In this document: in pieces, positions 4,007-23,765 of the stretch
How the letters are laid out: the number at the start of each line of letters is the position of its first letter
Position numbering within the stretch: the first letter of the stretch is position 1
Assembly (NCBI RefSeq): GCF_029688625.1
Contig: NZ_JARULC010000002.1
Span: forward strand, 186,001-250,000
Reading direction: 5' to 3'
Length of the DNA: 64,000 nt
DNA from: Qipengyuania marincola
Lineage (GTDB): Bacteria; Pseudomonadota; Alphaproteobacteria; Sphingomonadales; Sphingomonadaceae
The notes under the pieces: generated by a model
Told to the model about the DNA's origin: nothing
The model's input: the letters and a program-made list of their open reading frames with translations, nothing else
Databases searched by the model: none
Made by a program: the position numbers and the translations under genes

Positions 4007-4878
4007 TCGCGCTCGGGCTCGGGCAAGGGGCCGGGCGCGAAGGCAGCGTCGAGATAGTCCGCCATGCGCAACCCCGCCTGCAGCACGCGGCGCCGCGCGA
4101 TGGGGATGGCGCGCTCGATGTCTTCCTGAGTCAGCGCGGTCTCGTCAGGCAGGTCCGCGCCCTCGCACGGTGGCCGGTCGAAGGCGTTGGGATAGACGAA
4201 GTCGCGGCTGGTCTCCCAGCTTTCCCGGCCCCAGTCGGCAGGGGTCCCGCCAGCCATCGCTGCACGTTCTTCGGCGCTGTAACGGCGCGCGAGCGGCATC
4301 GGCGAGGACGTGATTGCGCGTTCGGCGAGCGGTCCGTCCCAGATCCAGTGCAGGTTGAGATCGGGCACGATGCCGTAATCGGTCTCGATGTCGTTGCCGC
4401 CGCGATCCTCATGGTCGCCCGAATGGAGCGGCATGTGCACGTCGCCGATGAAATGGACGAGGAATGCCAGCGCCTCCAGCCGGACATTGGCGGGCAGCGC
4501 CTCGTCGGCAAGGATGCGCTGGTTGCGCTCGATCTGCGCGAGGATGCAGTTCTGGCCCGAGCAATTTTTGCGCGGCTCGTAAGCCTCGCACACCGGCGTC
4601 GTGCGATAATGCCAGGCGAAGGTATAGCCCCAGCGCCAGTAATCCTTGCGCAGGCAATCGGGCCACACCGATGCGTCCTCCAGACTGGCGAGAGCGCAGT
4701 CGGGCGTACCGAGTTCTGGCGCGCTGCGCAGGAGTTGCGCGATCTTCGCCCGCGTTTCCGGAGTCACGTTTTCCAGCGCGATGTCGGCGGTGACGGTGTG
4801 GGCGTAATAGCCCCATGCCAGCGCCGGTGCCGGAAGCAGCGCCAGCAGCGCCGCACACAGGGCTGCCCACCGGATCAT
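4003..4878 (-). CDS. S1/P1-type nuclease, secreted
   Basis: Extracytoplasmic tri-zinc nuclease of the S1/P1 family. A signal peptide of about 21 residues ends ALA before tryptophan: mature proteins of this family begin with Trp, whose amino group binds zinc, and W22 followed by H27 fits exactly. Further ligands lie in ASVWPD, in the later HY motif and in the HFIGDVHMPLHSGDHEDRGGND region, the hallmark of the fold. The start at MIRWAALC overlaps the stop of the upstream GST gene (ATGA), which decides it over an ATG ten codons earlier. Likely degrades extracellular nucleic acid for phosphate or nucleoside supply. Confidence 0.93.
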   Translation of the reverse strand: MIRWAALCAALLALLPAPALAWGYYAHTVTADIALENVTPETRAKIAQLLRSAPELGTPDCALASLEDASVWPDCLRKDYWRWGYTFAWHYRTTPVCEAYEPRKNCSGQNCILAQIERNQRILADEALPANVRLEALAFLVHFIGDVHMPLHSGDHEDRGGNDIETDYGIVPDLNLHWIWDGPLAERAITSSPMPLARRYSAEERAAMAGGTPADWGRESWETSRDFVYPNAFDRPPCEGADLPDETALTQEDIERAIPIARRRVLQAGLRMADYLDAAFAPGPLPEPERD

Positions 4879-5534
4879 GCGACCGTTTCGTACTGCTCGA
4901 TGACCCATTCTTCGTTTTCAGATGCCTCGATCCAGCCCTGCATCCATTCATGTTCCCACACGGCCTGCATGTAGGCGGCGGCAAAGCCCGGCACGGCGAT
5001 CTGGTAACTGATGAAGCGGCTGACGACCGGCGCAAAGAATACGTCCGCCGCGCCAAAGGTACCGAACAGGAACGGCCCACCATTACCAAAGCGGCTGCGT
5101 GCCTCGGCCCACAGCGTCAGGATGCGCAGGATATCGTCGCGGCAATCCTCGCTTGGTTCGAACCCTTCGAAACGTTTGCGCACGTTCATCGGGCATTGGC
5201 TGCGCAAGGCCTGGAAGCTGGAGTGCATCTCCGCCACCATCGAGCGCGCCATGCCGCGTGCCACGTCGTCCTTCGGCCAGAAGCGGTCGCGCCCGACCTT
5301 GTCGGCGAGATATTCGAGAATGGCGAGGCTGTCCCAGACTACGACATCGTCGTCCCACATCAGCGGGACCTTGCCCGACGACGGCTGAATTTCCCCGCCC
5401 TGCTTGGTCGCTTCCCAGTTCTCGCCATACAGCGGTACGACGATTTCCTCGAACGACAGGCCCGACTGCTTGGCGGCCAGCCAGCCGCGCAACGACCAGC
5501 TCGAATAGTTCTTGTTGCCGATGATCAGTTTCAT
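4875..5534 (-). CDS. Glutathione S-transferase family protein
   Basis: A 219-residue GST with an N-terminal thioredoxin-like domain (residues 1-80, beginning MKLIIGNKNYSSWSLRGWL) and an all-helical C-terminal domain. The YSSWS segment carries the serine usually placed at the glutathione thiol. The ATG chosen is preceded by AAAGGTGG at nine bases; a GTG four codons upstream overlaps this site and is less likely. The gene overlaps the nuclease start by four bases, so the two form a two-gene operon, although no functional link is apparent. Substrate unknown; a stress or detoxification role is inferred from the family. Confidence 0.9.
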   Translation of the reverse strand: MKLIIGNKNYSSWSLRGWLAAKQSGLSFEEIVVPLYGENWEATKQGGEIQPSSGKVPLMWDDDVVVWDSLAILEYLADKVGRDRFWPKDDVARGMARSMVAEMHSSFQALRSQCPMNVRKRFEGFEPSEDCRDDILRILTLWAEARSRFGNGGPFLFGTFGAADVFFAPVVSRFISYQIAVPGFAAAYMQAVWEHEWMQGWIEASENEEWVIEQYETVA

Positions 5535-19016: not shown

Positions 19017-20255
19017 CTAGCGCACCGCGCGGCTCGCCACCCGGCCATCGATGATCACGCCGGTCACGTGGCTTGTATATTCGAGCGGGTCGCCATCGAA
19101 GAGCGCCACGTCGCCATCCTTGCCCACGTTCAGTGACCCCAGCCGTTCATCCACCCCGATCGCGCGCGCGGCGTCGATCGTGATGCTGGCCAGCGCGGCT
19201 TCGGGCGCGAGGCCGTTGGCAGCAGCCCAGCCCGCTTCCCACAGAACGACGCGGGTCTTTGGCACATAGGCCTCGTACCCGGATTGCAGCGCAAAGGGGA
19301 TGCCGGCTTCGCGCAGCGTCGCGGCGGTCGCGAAACTCGCATTTTCCATGTCGCCATAATGCCGCGCCATGGTCGGATGCAGCAGGACGGTCACGCCAGC
19401 CTCGCGCAGCTGATCGAGCAGGCGGTAGCTTTCCGCCCCGCCGTCGATCACCACGTCGATGTTGAACTCCTCCTTCAGCCGCAGCGCGCTCATGATATCC
19501 TGCGCGCGATTGGCCGTGACCATCAGCGGCACACGGCGCGCCAGAACGTCGCGCCAGACCTGCACATCGAGCTTGTTCGCGCCGGCATCGTTCTCTTCAT
19601 CCCGGGCACGCCTCTTCTGGGCCTCACCAGGTACCTGCCCGGCGCGGGCCGCCGTCAGCGCCGCGCGCAGGAGAGCGATCTGCTTGGGCCGCGTGCCGGG
19701 CCCCTTCTCGCTATCCATCGCGTCGGGGCCGAGATTGGCGGCGATCATCGCGCGCGGGACGATGGCCGCCGCATCCGCCGTCTTCGCGAATGTCTTGGCG
19801 ACCATGGTCTGGCCTGACACCACGGTACCCGGGCCGTGGCCGGTGTGGATCGTGGTCACGCCCAGCGAACGGAGCCAGCCAACCAGCTCCTCGTCCGGAT
19901 TGTAGCCGTCGATGGCGCGCAATTGCGGCTGGAGCGGTGCGCCGGTGTCGAGCTGGTCCTGATCGTCGAACTGGTTGAGATAGCCCGCGAGACCGACGAC
20001 GGTCCGCGCATCGACCAGCCCGGGCGTGGCCACTTTGGCCGAGAGCACCTCGACGCCCTCTGGGATCGCAATGCTCGACGCAGGGCCCACGGCGACGATC
20101 TTGCCGTCGCGGATGACGACCACGCCGTCACTGATCGCCGGCCCTTCCATCGTGTGCAGCGTCTCGGCCCGCACGGCGACATCCTGCGCGGCGAGTGGGA
20201 CAGAGACCGTGGCAAGAAGCGCGGCGGCGAGCGATTTGGCGATATGCTTGATCAT
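19017..20255 (-). CDS. Amidohydrolase-like protein lacking metal ligands (pseudoenzyme)
   Basis: A 412-residue exported protein (signal peptide ending PLAAQ) with the amidohydrolase fold, clearly paralogous to the intact enzyme encoded immediately upstream. Where the intact partner has DTHSH, this one reads DARTV (about 82-86); the later histidine positions are replaced too (VIDGGAESY for IQHGMEAW; ALQSGYEA for SLHSDDG; TANRAQDI for HHTHRADDI). Fold segments such as LNVGKDGDVALFDGDPLEY remain. It is therefore probably not a metal-dependent hydrolase. Its ATG overlaps the partner stop, so the two are likely made together and may form a complex. Confidence 0.85.
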   Translation of the reverse strand: MIKHIAKSLAAALLATVSVPLAAQDVAVRAETLHTMEGPAISDGVVVIRDGKIVAVGPASSIAIPEGVEVLSAKVATPGLVDARTVVGLAGYLNQFDDQDQLDTGAPLQPQLRAIDGYNPDEELVGWLRSLGVTTIHTGHGPGTVVSGQTMVAKTFAKTADAAAIVPRAMIAANLGPDAMDSEKGPGTRPKQIALLRAALTAARAGQVPGEAQKRRARDEENDAGANKLDVQVWRDVLARRVPLMVTANRAQDIMSALRLKEEFNIDVVIDGGAESYRLLDQLREAGVTVLLHPTMARHYGDMENASFATAATLREAGIPFALQSGYEAYVPKTRVVLWEAGWAAANGLAPEAALASITIDAARAIGVDERLGSLNVGKDGDVALFDGDPLEYTSHVTGVIIDGRVASRAVR

Positions 20256-21556
20256 TGGCCGGCCTCCGCTTCGGCTGCTTCCCAGTGATGATGCGCAAGC
20301 TCCATCGGGCTGCCCGCGCCATAGCCGCCTTCGGCCAGCAGCTTGCCTTCTTCGGTCGAGCGGTCGAACAGCTTCTCGCCCTCGACCCAGGTCTGCATGA
20401 CGTCCGTATAGACCGAGAGCGGATCGCCCGAGAGGATCAGGAAATCGGCGTCCTTGCCGACCTCGAGACTTCCCACGCTATCCTCGATGCCAAGCTGCTT
20501 CGCGCCGTTGATGGTCAGGGCCCGCAAGGCGCCCTCGCGGCTCATCCCGCCGCGCACGGCGATGCCCGCCTGGCGGAACATGAGACGTGAATCGATGATG
20601 CCATCATCGGAATGCAGCGAGGTCAGCACCCCGGCCCGCTCAAGCGCCGCAGCCGTTTCGAGGCGCGATTCCTGCGCTTCCAGCTTGCCGCCCGGACTGT
20701 CGACCAGGATGTTCGACACGGGCACGCCGGCCGCGGCCAGCTCCTCGGCGACCTTCCAGGCCTCCATGCCGTGCTGGATCAGCACGCGGAACCCGAACTC
20801 GCGCTGCAACCGCAGCACGGTCATGATGTCGTCCGCACGGTGGGTGTGATGATGCACCAGCCGCTTGCCCGACAGGACTTCGCACAGCGCCTCCTTGCCG
20901 AGATCGACCGGCGTGCGCTTGCCCTTGCAATAGGATTGCGCCTCGGTGAAGGCCGCGCGGACCAACGCCGCGGATTTTGCTCGCGTCCCCGGAAATCCGG
21001 GCGTTTCGCCAATGGGATTGGTGCCGTTGGCCATCTTGAGCCCGCCCATCACCGACCCATCGGGAAAGCGCCAGGCAATGTCCTCGATCGTCTCGCCGTC
21101 GCGCAGCCGCATGTAGAATGTCTGGCCGCTGACGAGCCAGCCCGACCCCGGCATCACATTGGCGGTGGTGACGCCTCCGGCGCGCGCCTTGGCGATGCTG
21201 GCGTCGCGCGGATTGATCGCATCCATTGCACGGACTTCGGGCTGGATGGGCGAGGAGCGGTCGGCCCCTGCCACCGAGCCGATATGCGAATGCGTATCGA
21301 CGATGCCGGGCATGATCACCATGCCGGTTGCGTCGCGGCGTTCGGCATCGGCCGGAATCTCGACCGCCGCGCCGACGCCGGCAATCTTGCCGCGATGGAT
21401 TACGAAAGTGCCGGCAGGTATGGTTTCACCGGCCATCGTATGGATGGTCGCGCCTTCGAACGCGATCGGCCGCTCCTGTGCCTGAACCGCCCCGGCCGAC
21501 AGATATGTCGCCATAATGGCGACAGTGGCACCACGCAGCACCGCTCTAGCTTTCAT
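20252..21556 (-). CDS. Amidohydrolase family protein, exported
   Basis: A 434-residue metal-dependent hydrolase with an N-terminal signal peptide (to about AQAQ at 27). Motifs: H89-S-H91 in IMPGIVDTHSHIG, HHHTHRADD at about 235-243, H262 in IQHGMEAW and H315/D317-D318 in SLHSDDG, the set expected for an imidazolonepropionase- or prolidase-like enzyme. The start with GGGAGGA five to six bases before ATG fixes MKARAVLRG; an upstream ATG 41 codons earlier is not family-like. Overlapping ATGA with the degenerate paralogue downstream. Substrate unknown; peptides or cyclic amides in the periplasm are plausible. Confidence 0.9.
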   Translation of the reverse strand: MKARAVLRGATVAIMATYLSAGAVQAQERPIAFEGATIHTMAGETIPAGTFVIHRGKIAGVGAAVEIPADAERRDATGMVIMPGIVDTHSHIGSVAGADRSSPIQPEVRAMDAINPRDASIAKARAGGVTTANVMPGSGWLVSGQTFYMRLRDGETIEDIAWRFPDGSVMGGLKMANGTNPIGETPGFPGTRAKSAALVRAAFTEAQSYCKGKRTPVDLGKEALCEVLSGKRLVHHHTHRADDIMTVLRLQREFGFRVLIQHGMEAWKVAEELAAAGVPVSNILVDSPGGKLEAQESRLETAAALERAGVLTSLHSDDGIIDSRLMFRQAGIAVRGGMSREGALRALTINGAKQLGIEDSVGSLEVGKDADFLILSGDPLSVYTDVMQTWVEGEKLFDRSTEEGKLLAEGGYGAGSPMELAHHHWEAAEAEAGQ

Positions 21557-21611
21557 GCAATCCTCCCTGACGGCAGCACAGTAGCCTCGATCGCGTCGCT
21601 CGCAAGCCCGT

Positions 21612-22631
21612 TCACGACACGACCGGCTCGAGGAGTCGGATCGTACGCGCATCAGCATCCAGCTCGACCCGGACTCCATGCGGCATCGCCTGCTGGTTCG
21701 TCACATGGCCGATGTTTGCCCCGGCGAAGGCAGGAATGCCGAGGCTGCCGAGATGATGGTCGAGCACGGTGTCGAGCGTGAAGCCCGCCTCGCTGTTCTC
21801 TTCCGGATTGCAGCGCGTGCACTGGCCGAACGCCACCCCCGCCAGCTTGCCGAGCACCCCGGCCAGGCGCAGCTGCTGGAGCATGCGATCCACCCGATAT
21901 ACATCCTCGTTCACATCCTCGAGAAACAGCACCGCGCGATCGAAATCGGGCAGGTAGGGCGTCCCCATCAGGGTGGAAAGGATCGTGAGGTTCCCGCCCA
22001 GCAGGCGGCCTTGCGCTGTTCCGGACGAAATCGTGCGCCCGGTGCGACCGCTTGCCTGCTCGGCAGCCGCGCCTGCGAGCACCGGCGTATCGGCGGCAAA
22101 GGCCAGCCGCCACAGGCTGTCCCAGCTTTCCCGTTCCCATCGGCTCGCGGCATTGGGGCCATGGATTGTCGGAAAACCTGCCCGCGCCGCAATCGCCAGA
22201 TGCAGCGCGGTCGTGTCGGAATAGCCAATCAGCAGCTTCGGATTGGCCCGGATCATGCCCCATTCCAGCAACGGCAGAATGCGCGCGCCGCCCCAGCCGC
22301 CGCGAATGGCGAAGATGCCGCGCACTTGCGGGTCGGCAACCATCGCCATGTAATCCTCGGCGCGCTGAACGTCCGTACCTGCGAGGTAGCCGTCCTGCTC
22401 GCGCACGTGACGACCGAGCTTCGGCTCCAGACCCATGCCGCTGATCCAGTGCTGCGCACGGTCGAGCTCCCATGGCAGGGTCAGCGCGCTTGCCGGGGCG
22501 ACGAGGCCGACGGTATCGCCAATGCGCAAGCGAGGTGCCTTGCGCGGCGTTGCGGCGGCGAGCGGGTGCGGCAGCGAGGCCGCAAGCAGCGCGCCACTCA
22601 TGGTGCCCAGCGCCGCGCGCCGGTCGATCAT
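21612..22631 (-). CDS. LD-carboxypeptidase (S66 family)
   Basis: Murein LD-carboxypeptidase of the S66 type that removes the terminal D-residue from peptidoglycan tetrapeptides. A 339-residue protein with a twin-arginine-like start (MIDRRAALGTM, then a hydrophobic run) suggesting Tat or lipoprotein-free export. The nucleophile serine is in IGYSDTT; the histidine of the triad is in ANIGHVTNQ and the glutamate in the FLEDVNEDVYRVDRM region. The start overlaps the cytidine deaminase stop, which decides it over a longer frame. Whether it recycles or turns over murein cannot be told. Confidence 0.9.
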   Translation of the reverse strand: MIDRRAALGTMSGALLAASLPHPLAAATPRKAPRLRIGDTVGLVAPASALTLPWELDRAQHWISGMGLEPKLGRHVREQDGYLAGTDVQRAEDYMAMVADPQVRGIFAIRGGWGGARILPLLEWGMIRANPKLLIGYSDTTALHLAIAARAGFPTIHGPNAASRWERESWDSLWRLAFAADTPVLAGAAAEQASGRTGRTISSGTAQGRLLGGNLTILSTLMGTPYLPDFDRAVLFLEDVNEDVYRVDRMLQQLRLAGVLGKLAGVAFGQCTRCNPEENSEAGFTLDTVLDHHLGSLGIPAFAGANIGHVTNQQAMPHGVRVELDADARTIRLLEPVVS

Positions 22632-23032
22632 GCGAGGCTTGCCGGGCCGAACGCGTCGGGCAGGAGCTGTGACAATCGCACACGCCGCGTCGTCTCCGGG
22701 CCGACGCACAGAATCTCCGGATCGGTGCCACCCAGCTGCGCCAATTCGTTGATCACCTGTCGGCAGCGGCCGCAGGGCGTGATCGGCTCCGCGCCCGGCC
22801 CGGTGACCGCGACCGCTTCCAACCCGCCGCGCACCCCATCGGCCATCGCCTTGGAAACCGCCACCGTCTCCGCACACAGCGCCAGCCCATAGCTGGCATT
22901 CTCGATATTCGTGCCGGTCACCACGCTGCCATCGGCGAAACGCAATGCGGCACCGACTGCGAAGTTCGAATAGGGCGAATAGGACTGCGCGGCGGCCGCA
23001 CGGGCTGCGGCGATGAGATCGTCGTCGGTCAT
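22628..23032 (-). CDS. cdd: Cytidine deaminase
   Basis: Zinc enzyme converting cytidine and deoxycytidine to uridine and deoxyuridine in pyrimidine salvage. The 134-residue protein shows the CAE motif (NASYGLALCAETVAVSK; catalytic glutamate beside the first Cys) and the second PCGRCRQ, supplying the three zinc cysteines of the tetrameric CDA class. The N-terminal YSPYSNFAVGAAL is family-typical. Start ATG; the gene overlaps the next by four bases and forms part of the minus-strand run reaching back to UPF0262. Confidence 0.95.
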   Translation of the reverse strand: MTDDDLIAAARAAAAQSYSPYSNFAVGAALRFADGSVVTGTNIENASYGLALCAETVAVSKAMADGVRGGLEAVAVTGPGAEPITPCGRCRQVINELAQLGGTDPEILCVGPETTRRVRLSQLLPDAFGPASLA

Positions 23033-23042
23033 GGCACTCTCG

Positions 23043-23765
23043 TCAAAATGGCCGCACCACGACCCAGCGCAGCGGCGATTGCGCGGCCTCGTTCCGGTAC
23101 CAGCGATTGGCAGTCCACATCAGCCAGGGACGCACGGCATAGTCGGGTTCCGACCAGCTGCTCGTCAGCCATAGCTGACGGTCGATCCGGCGCGACACCC
23201 CGTACAGCTGTTCGAATTCGTCGCTGGGCGCGAGGATCACCGCCTTGCCGGTATGCGCTTCGATCTGGTTGACCAGCGTCATCAGCTCGCTTTGCACGGC
23301 GGCGTCGGACACCCGCTCGGCGCAGTCCTCGGCATTTCCTTCCAGCAGGATGGCGGCAGGCAGGAGCGCGGCATCGCGCGGTACCATGGTGACGAAATTG
23401 GCCGATTGTCCGTCTGCGACATCACAGGGATCGAACCGGTGAACCGCGCCCACTTCCAGCCCCGCCTGCCCGGCCCTCGCAAGATTCTGCGCAAAGGCGA
23501 TGTCGCGGCCCTCGGTCCCGTCGCTTGCCTCGAGATAGACGAATTTCGCGCCGAGGCCCTTCAGAGTGTCGAAGGCCACCGGCCCGTCGTCTGCTGCAAG
23601 CAGTGCACCCTGGTCGGGCCAGACCGCCTCGTCGGGCCGCCATGCCTGCCGGTCGATCACGAACCAGGCTGCCGCGCCGCCTGCCAGAACCAGCAGTAGC
23701 AGGGCGACCTTCACGACCCGCGACAGGCCGCCCTTGCGTTTCGTTTTGCGTTTCGCGCGCGCCAT
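23043..23765 (-). CDS. GH25-like membrane-anchored protein
   Basis: A 240-residue protein with a basic N-terminus, one transmembrane anchor (about 18-38, LLLVLAGGAAAWFVI) and a domain related to GH25 lysozymes. The family usually shows GIDVSxxQG, KATEG and LDxE; here the corresponding parts read DQGALL, YLEASDG and LLEGN, so the catalytic acids are altered or shifted. The C-terminal WLMWTANRWYRN is a typical GH25 strand. It may still act on peptidoglycan but the motifs are degenerate. It starts four bases after UPF0262 ends. Confidence 0.75.
   Translation of the reverse strand: MARAKRKTKRKGGLSRVVKVALLLLVLAGGAAAWFVIDRQAWRPDEAVWPDQGALLAADDGPVAFDTLKGLGAKFVYLEASDGTEGRDIAFAQNLARAGQAGLEVGAVHRFDPCDVADGQSANFVTMVPRDAALLPAAILLEGNAEDCAERVSDAAVQSELMTLVNQIEAHTGKAVILAPSDEFEQLYGVSRRIDRQLWLTSSWSEPDYAVRPWLMWTANRWYRNEAAQSPLRWVVVRPF

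Follow-up and report, generated by a model that had tools for sequence, protein, structure and literature searches.

The locus and its surroundings

The window, i.e., the whole 64-kb stretch of Qipengyuania marincola DNA that was analysed, carries two adjacent amidohydrolase genes on its minus strand, which are referred to here as A and B. The following features define the locus and the genes upstream of it:

20252 to 21556, minus strand: A, an active-type amidohydrolase of 434 aa (ORF and translation)
19017 to 20255, minus strand: B, a full-length paralogue of 412 aa without the metal ligands, i.e., a pseudoenzyme (ORF and translation)
20252 to 20255, minus strand: overlap of the A stop codon with the B start codon, ATGA, 4 bases (ORF coordinates)
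21612 to 22877, minus strand: LD-carboxypeptidase (peptidase S66), upstream of A on the same strand (ORF and Pfam)
22628 to 23032, minus strand: cytidine deaminase, upstream of A
23043 to 23765, minus strand: GH25 family protein, upstream of A

An earlier note on this DNA had described the two genes as overlapping by four bases and both copies as bearing signal peptides. The overlap was confirmed (ATGA at 20252-20255), and the N-termini of A and B, inspected by eye, do look like signal peptides; on this judgement, both proteins would be exported. Equal production of A and B is only suggested by the overlap.

The S66 ORF ends 55 bases before A, and the real start of this gene probably lies inside the ORF. 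The genes for the GH25 protein, the cytidine deaminase, the LD-carboxypeptidase, A, and B could possibly form a minus-strand operon (19017-23765). By family, two members of this candidate operon are linked to murein, a hint at the nature of the substrate; these neighbours would allow a role for A in murein-peptide turnover. Around A-B loci more generally, five of ten upstream ORFs encode peptidases (S66, S9, S10 twice, and S46) and none of ten downstream ORFs does, in a sample of same-strand ORFs chosen by hand, the upstream ones from 94 listed neighbours. The neighbours are too varied for a substrate to be named from context. Perhaps A is a peptidase or amidase acting on periplasmic small peptides or amides, a guess drawn from its distant relatives and from the peptidases among its neighbours.

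Fold and family of the two proteins

Both A and B score above the gathering cut-off of the amidohydrolase Pfam families PF07969/PF01979, and the top PDB match for both is 3ooq (E 1.2e-62 for A and 1.1e-34 for B), an amidohydrolase of Thermotoga maritima, which is thus the closest solved structure to either protein. An AF2 model of B, built from a 31-row alignment, reached a pLDDT of 82.9 and a pTM of 0.84. When this model was compared with the PDB, 3ooq again came clearly first (TM 0.83 by query and 0.89 by target, at 25% identity), and the entries ranked after it reached a TM of about 0.4-0.6. B thus retains the whole fold. Profile scores above the cut-off, together with the barrel-plus-sandwich fold (for B, that of the model), place both proteins in the amidohydrolase superfamily.

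Assignment to a narrower family is another matter. None of the named NCBIfam equivalog families that were listed (hutI, Xaa-Pro dipeptidase, and others) reached its curated cut-off with A or B, the best scores being 70.9 against a cut-off of 500 for A and 47.7 against 298 for B. The group comprising imidazolonepropionase, Xaa-Pro dipeptidase, and the Cc2672 carboxypeptidase shares the fold and the general ligand layout with A; however, with NCBIfam scores so far under the cut-offs, neither protein is assigned there. The literature searched yielded no publication naming 3ooq or TM0814.

Loss of the metal ligands in B

The residues H89, H91, K174, H237, H262, and D317 of A are those that we take to be the metal ligands, on general knowledge of the superfamily aided by the alignment with 3ooq. 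They supply the set expected of catalytic members (HxH, Lys, His, His, and Asp), which is present in A and missing from B. In the alignment, H89 of A corresponds to R84 of B, H91 to V86, K174 to A172, H237 to T247, H262 to G272, and D317 to E328. In the Thermotoga structure, the metal-ligand segments are intact, as judged by its alignment to A, whereas B has lost them. The altered segments of B, all taken from the alignment, are:

19998 to 20012, minus strand: residues 82-86, DARTV, replacing D-T-H-S-H (strand 1)
19497 to 19520, minus strand: residues 246-253, VTANRAQD, replacing HHTHRADD (strand 5), with Thr247 in place of the metal His
19425 to 19448, minus strand: residues 270-277, IDGGAESY, replacing IQHGMEAW (strand 6)
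19251 to 19292, minus strand: residues 322-335, ALQSGYEAYVPKTR, the strand-8 loop

The same losses recur in other genomes. Ligand counts were made on 41 A rows and 46 B rows, from which L044 was excluded since its B frame is broken. In the alignment A2, the rows P0002 and L001 are identical. All 41 A rows retain the ligand set wherever a residue is present. Among the B rows, the second His of HxH is found in 0 of 44, the strand-4 Lys in 0 of 45, and the strand-5 and strand-6 His in 0 of 46 each. The strand-8 Asp is replaced in B by a Glu that is invariant (46/46) and lies within a loop two residues longer, a site that is alignment-dependent because another gap placement puts a Gly there. The first His of HxH survives in 24 of the 43 B rows with a residue at this site. 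Thus, the claim of the earlier note that the downstream copy lacks its metal ligands is real, with this partial retention of one His. The note had also asked whether close relatives share the loss; it is conserved both near and far, in these 46 B rows as well as in a wider set of 67 B rows and 27 fused halves (see below). This calls for caution in annotation: Pfam calls B an amidohydrolase, yet B cannot use the usual metal centre.

Selection and divergence

A copy that has lost its metal ligands might be a decaying duplicate without any selected function. The rates of substitution argue otherwise. Among 55 pairs of 11 loci, the median NG86 dN/dS was 0.178 for B and 0.151 for A, values to be read with synonymous sites close to saturation in many pairs; among the closest relatives, it was approx. 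0.06-0.14 for B and similar for A, and in the closest pair (L037-L038) it was 0.060 for B and 0.059 for A. Since the dN/dS of B is as low as that of A, B is not decaying, and relaxed selection, the outcome that the note had named as telling against it, is not supported. B is thus an inactive paralogue under purifying selection, as would be expected of the dead partner in a heteromer. Mean distances over 62 loci from several phyla are alike (0.445 for A and 0.470 for B), and the full length, order, and motif of B are conserved in several phyla. The loss of ligands is the point in favour of decay, an idea that is hardly credible unless the alignments are at fault. The proposal that a dead copy kept in this way has a selected, non-catalytic function is well supported by the purifying selection and the conserved losses.

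The A and B distances are correlated over the same 62 loci (r 0.846, a value equalled in 0 of 2000 permutations), and the correlation drops to 0.44 when divergent pairs only are used.

Distribution and gene order

In a survey collection holding one genome per species, with taxa taken from record titles, 43 B loci were found at 40-88% identity over the best segment. They occur in Erythrobacter, Qipengyuania, Aurantiacibacter, a member of the Lysobacteraceae, Balneolaceae, Rhodothermaceae, and other Bacteroidetes, and also in Planctomycetota, Acidobacteria, and Gemmatimonadetes. Of these loci, 36 are typed A-B pairs, one (L078) is a fusion, one (L044) has a broken B preceded by a fragment of A, and four (L052, L074, L075, and L077) end at contig edges. 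The last, L069, carries a B gene (4069-5214) on a MAG contig of 5.4 kb; the 4 kb upstream of this gene contain no A, and the locus is either a genuine solitary B or the product of a binning or assembly fault.

Wherever both genes were typed, A precedes B on the same strand (65/65 loci, representing 64 different pairs, as both genes of L061 match those of L087 exactly). A 4-base overlap can be read at 30 of these junctions and a 1-base overlap at 20, the B start codon having been taken as the one nearest to the A stop, which biases the counts toward short overlaps. The other 15 loci are gapped by 1 to 567 bases (567 in L062, 364 in L063, and 283 in L066).

Within the family, 5 of 199 genomes have B (E <= 9e-159), and A (E <= 1e-80) occurs in the same five only, as counted from the best 8-9 candidates scored per genome; two further genomes of the genus of the window have neither gene. 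These counts indicate that the pair is gained or lost as a unit across the family. In Planctomycetota, the best 24 unfused A-type matches were given loci, and B adjoins A in 24 of 24. Some weaker A-type matches (approx. 45-46% identity) have no adjoining B-type match, among the matches listed, and one of them, G258, turned out to be a pair of the related C-D type (L145) described below. B is therefore found together with an active paralogue, and the active/dead arrangement is family-wide and not peculiar to the Q. marincola genome.

Co-occurrence, operon structure, and co-inheritance of this kind would equally fit two non-interacting proteins that serve one pathway, B being a separate periplasmic protein for binding or scavenging that is co-transcribed with A for the sake of this pathway. 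It is the natural fusions of the two genes that count against such an arrangement.

Fusions in Planctomycetota

In Planctomycetota, 28 distinct single-ORF fusions of A and B were found, with the active half at the N-terminus; 30 ORFs had been flagged as fusions, of which L080 (the same sequence as L078) and L109 (of the C-D type) were removed. An alignment that mixed fusions with separate A and B rows apparently placed B rows on the N half, and it was replaced by a fusions-only alignment (A3) of 27 sequences, L114 being omitted as a near copy of L113. In all 27, the six ligand positions of the N half are invariant. At four of the sites (second His, Lys, and the His of strands 5 and 6), the C half never has His or Lys (0/27); the strand-5 site, for example, is occupied by V in 4, T in 1, C in 7, A in 12, G in 1, M in 1, and R in 1. 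The first His of HxH survives in 12 of the 27 C halves.

An uncontrolled AlphaFold prediction for the fusion P0003 (833 residues), made with the 27-row alignment from this one phylum, gave a pLDDT of 81.3 and a pTM of 0.85. Two equal barrels of arbitrary mutual orientation should score below a pTM of 0.85. On our reading of this score, the mutual orientation of the two equal-sized barrels is confidently predicted. The A half of the model superimposes on 3ooq with a Z of 52.5 and an rmsd of 1.9 over 378 residues. By homology, the arrangement seen in the fusion model would also apply to the unfused A-B pair of the window. Together with the several fusion layouts of the trios (see below), the fusions and the pTM of the fused pair make the notion of an independent, non-contacting B very improbable.

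The fusions have a further feature at their end. A pair of cysteines lies within the final 12 residues of 24 of the 27 A-B fusions (L083, L084, and L112-L134 except L114), and the separate B proteins, among those listed, stop short of this Cys-Cys tail.

Related pairs and trios

The Q. marincola genome holds a second tandem active/dead pair, of a type named C-D (G000:C2:416746-419237; L003 and L004). The active gene, C, precedes D at all 26 C-D loci of the window's family, and the two can be read as overlapping by 4 bases or by 1. The six ligands are intact in 26 of 26 C rows. Both His of HxH are gone from 26 of 26 D rows, and the strand-5 His is retained in 12 of the 26, in a sample that is not unbiased since the D rows were retrieved with a B query.

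In other phyla, the C-type gene may sit between two degenerate copies. The 11 regions covered, judged by profile matches and the strand-1 motif, are arranged in diverse ways. The barrels are encoded as three separate genes in L147, L149, and L150; with C and D fused and the first gene separate in L148; with the first two fused in L143; and in a single ORF of 1493-1540 aa, apparently dead-active-dead, in L141, L142, L144, and L146. L145 is a plain pair, and in L151 C and D form one long frame with the first barrel in another, overlapping frame. The C barrel of the trios has HSH, and the other barrels have no HxH where the motif is readable; the match to the first barrel is frequently weak or fragmentary.

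Phylogeny

Two trees were built, a quick one from 88 rows and a careful one from 49 hand-picked rows, among them an A and a B row list. Both place A, the A halves of the fusions, and C opposite B, the B halves, and D, and the active side is supported by 100/99 in the careful tree. Rows shorter than 330 residues (A_L040, A_L047, B_L075, B_L077, B_L107, and D_L013, which has an internal stop) were excluded from both. In five fusions, the A and B halves branch in matching order. An independent origin of the A-B and C-D pairs, i.e., a tree in which A, B, and the fusions form one clade, was rejected, being 44 log units worse with a p-AU of 0.0066, in a test whose constrained group was chosen with the quick tree already available. 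The simplest account would thus be one ancient duplication that gave rise to an active (A and C) and a dead (B and D) lineage, which have stayed together. Given that the tree is unrooted and its dead branches are long, parallel loss combined with branch attraction retains some probability, and long-branch effects may have contributed to the rejection of the one-clade tree.

Conserved residues in the B pocket

Across 94 rows (67 of separate B proteins and 27 of fused halves), the residues N94, E328, Y330, V331, P332, and E340 are invariant (94/94), and K333 is present in 93, H293 in 90, and H137 in 88. In the B model, H137, H293, and E328 lie at or shortly past the C-terminal ends of strands 3, 7, and 8, respectively. 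The active sites of amidohydrolases sit at the C-terminal strand ends. It is therefore conceivable that B is a re-tooled enzyme or ligand-binder whose pocket (N94, H137, H293, and E328-x-Y-V-P-K) binds or converts a related small molecule, and that A and B share one substrate or act sequentially. Indeed, such strict conservation of the pocket is more than a mere scaffold would obviously need.

Other observations weigh against this explanation. The strand-end positions of B are barely more conserved than the rest of the protein (median top-residue fraction 0.68 vs. 0.585, p 0.023; p 0.083 against the opposite strand ends), unlike those of A (0.93 vs. 0.66). The B pocket is thus relaxed overall, a few residues being kept without exception. 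Moreover, H140, present as His in 65 of the 67 B rows, is replaced by Pro in 27 of 27 fused halves, so no single metal site is common to all, and the dead copies of the C-D pairs do not carry the strand-8 motif of B, among the rows listed. A re-tooled B therefore seems to us rather unlikely. The conserved residues (E-x-Y-V-P-K and the others) may belong to an interface, bind a regulatory ligand, or make up a new active site.

The loop after HxH varies between the groups. A motif resembling S-D-G-N-E is absent from all 41 A rows, present in 22 of 26 C rows, and found in 27 of 27 fused A halves, and the loop is approx. 9 residues shorter in the separate A proteins than in the fusions and C. The corresponding loop of B is of the longer type and contains N94, D98, and D100.

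A putative two-component enzyme

Taken together, B is probably a conserved pseudoenzyme that serves as one of the two subunits of an exported amidohydrolase, A being the other, as judged from sequence comparison and structure prediction. The idea of a heteromer is made more credible by the fixed gene order and overlap, the co-occurrence of the two genes, the natural fusions, and the confident prediction of how the two domains are placed. The recurrence of the same pair across phyla, in part as fused proteins, suggests a functional role for the inactive twin within the enzyme. For Q. marincola itself, we infer a physical A-B complex and an effect of B on A.

The steps might be envisaged as follows. 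An ancient duplication would have set up two lineages, one that is catalytic (A and the related C) and one that is not (B and D). A and B, encoded as an overlapping pair and probably translationally coupled, would then be exported. A would hold the metal centre and perform the chemistry, whereas B would pack onto A barrel to barrel, in the manner that the fusions preserve, and would complete, stabilise, or allosterically switch it.

A broader proposal can be made, albeit as a tentative one that we would doubt sooner than defend: this branch of exported amidohydrolases might consist of obligate enzyme-pseudoenzyme machines, each with one catalytic barrel and one or two dead ones (as pairs, trios, or fusions of two or three barrels) and all derived from one ancient duplication; in the pair of the window, the B pocket (N94, H137, H293, and E328-x-Y-V-P-K) would now serve as a regulatory or second catalytic site.

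The family offers a series of arrangements: the genes may be separate or overlapping, fused in twos or threes, or grouped as dead-active-dead trios. Its tree separates the active and dead lineages once. This makes it a good system for studying how a dead copy comes to be indispensable, and for what reason.

Comparison with known systems

Enzyme-pseudoenzyme pairs are already known. A search that lacked most subscription journals found no publication on amidohydrolase pairs with an inactive subunit or on tandem or pseudo-amidohydrolases. Two precedents come from eukaryotes: in the trypanosome AdoMetDC-prozyme system, a dead paralogue forms a heteromer with the active copy and activates it (PMC5201418), and in deoxyhypusine synthase, a dead paralogue likewise joins and activates the active copy in a heteromer (PMC3663545). 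Both are unrelated enzymes whose heteromers were demonstrated biochemically, whereas the A-B pair is known here from sequences and models. A precedent from within the superfamily is the aspartate transcarbamoylase (ATCase) of Pseudomonas aeruginosa, in which an inactive pseudo-dihydroorotase is required for its partner to be active (PMC7053772). Like B, this pseudo-dihydroorotase is an inactive homologue from the amidohydrolase superfamily, although it does not belong to the group of A and B, and neither does the AdoMetDC prozyme. Its partner there is the unrelated ATCase, whereas the partner of B would be its own active paralogue, with both proteins apparently exported.
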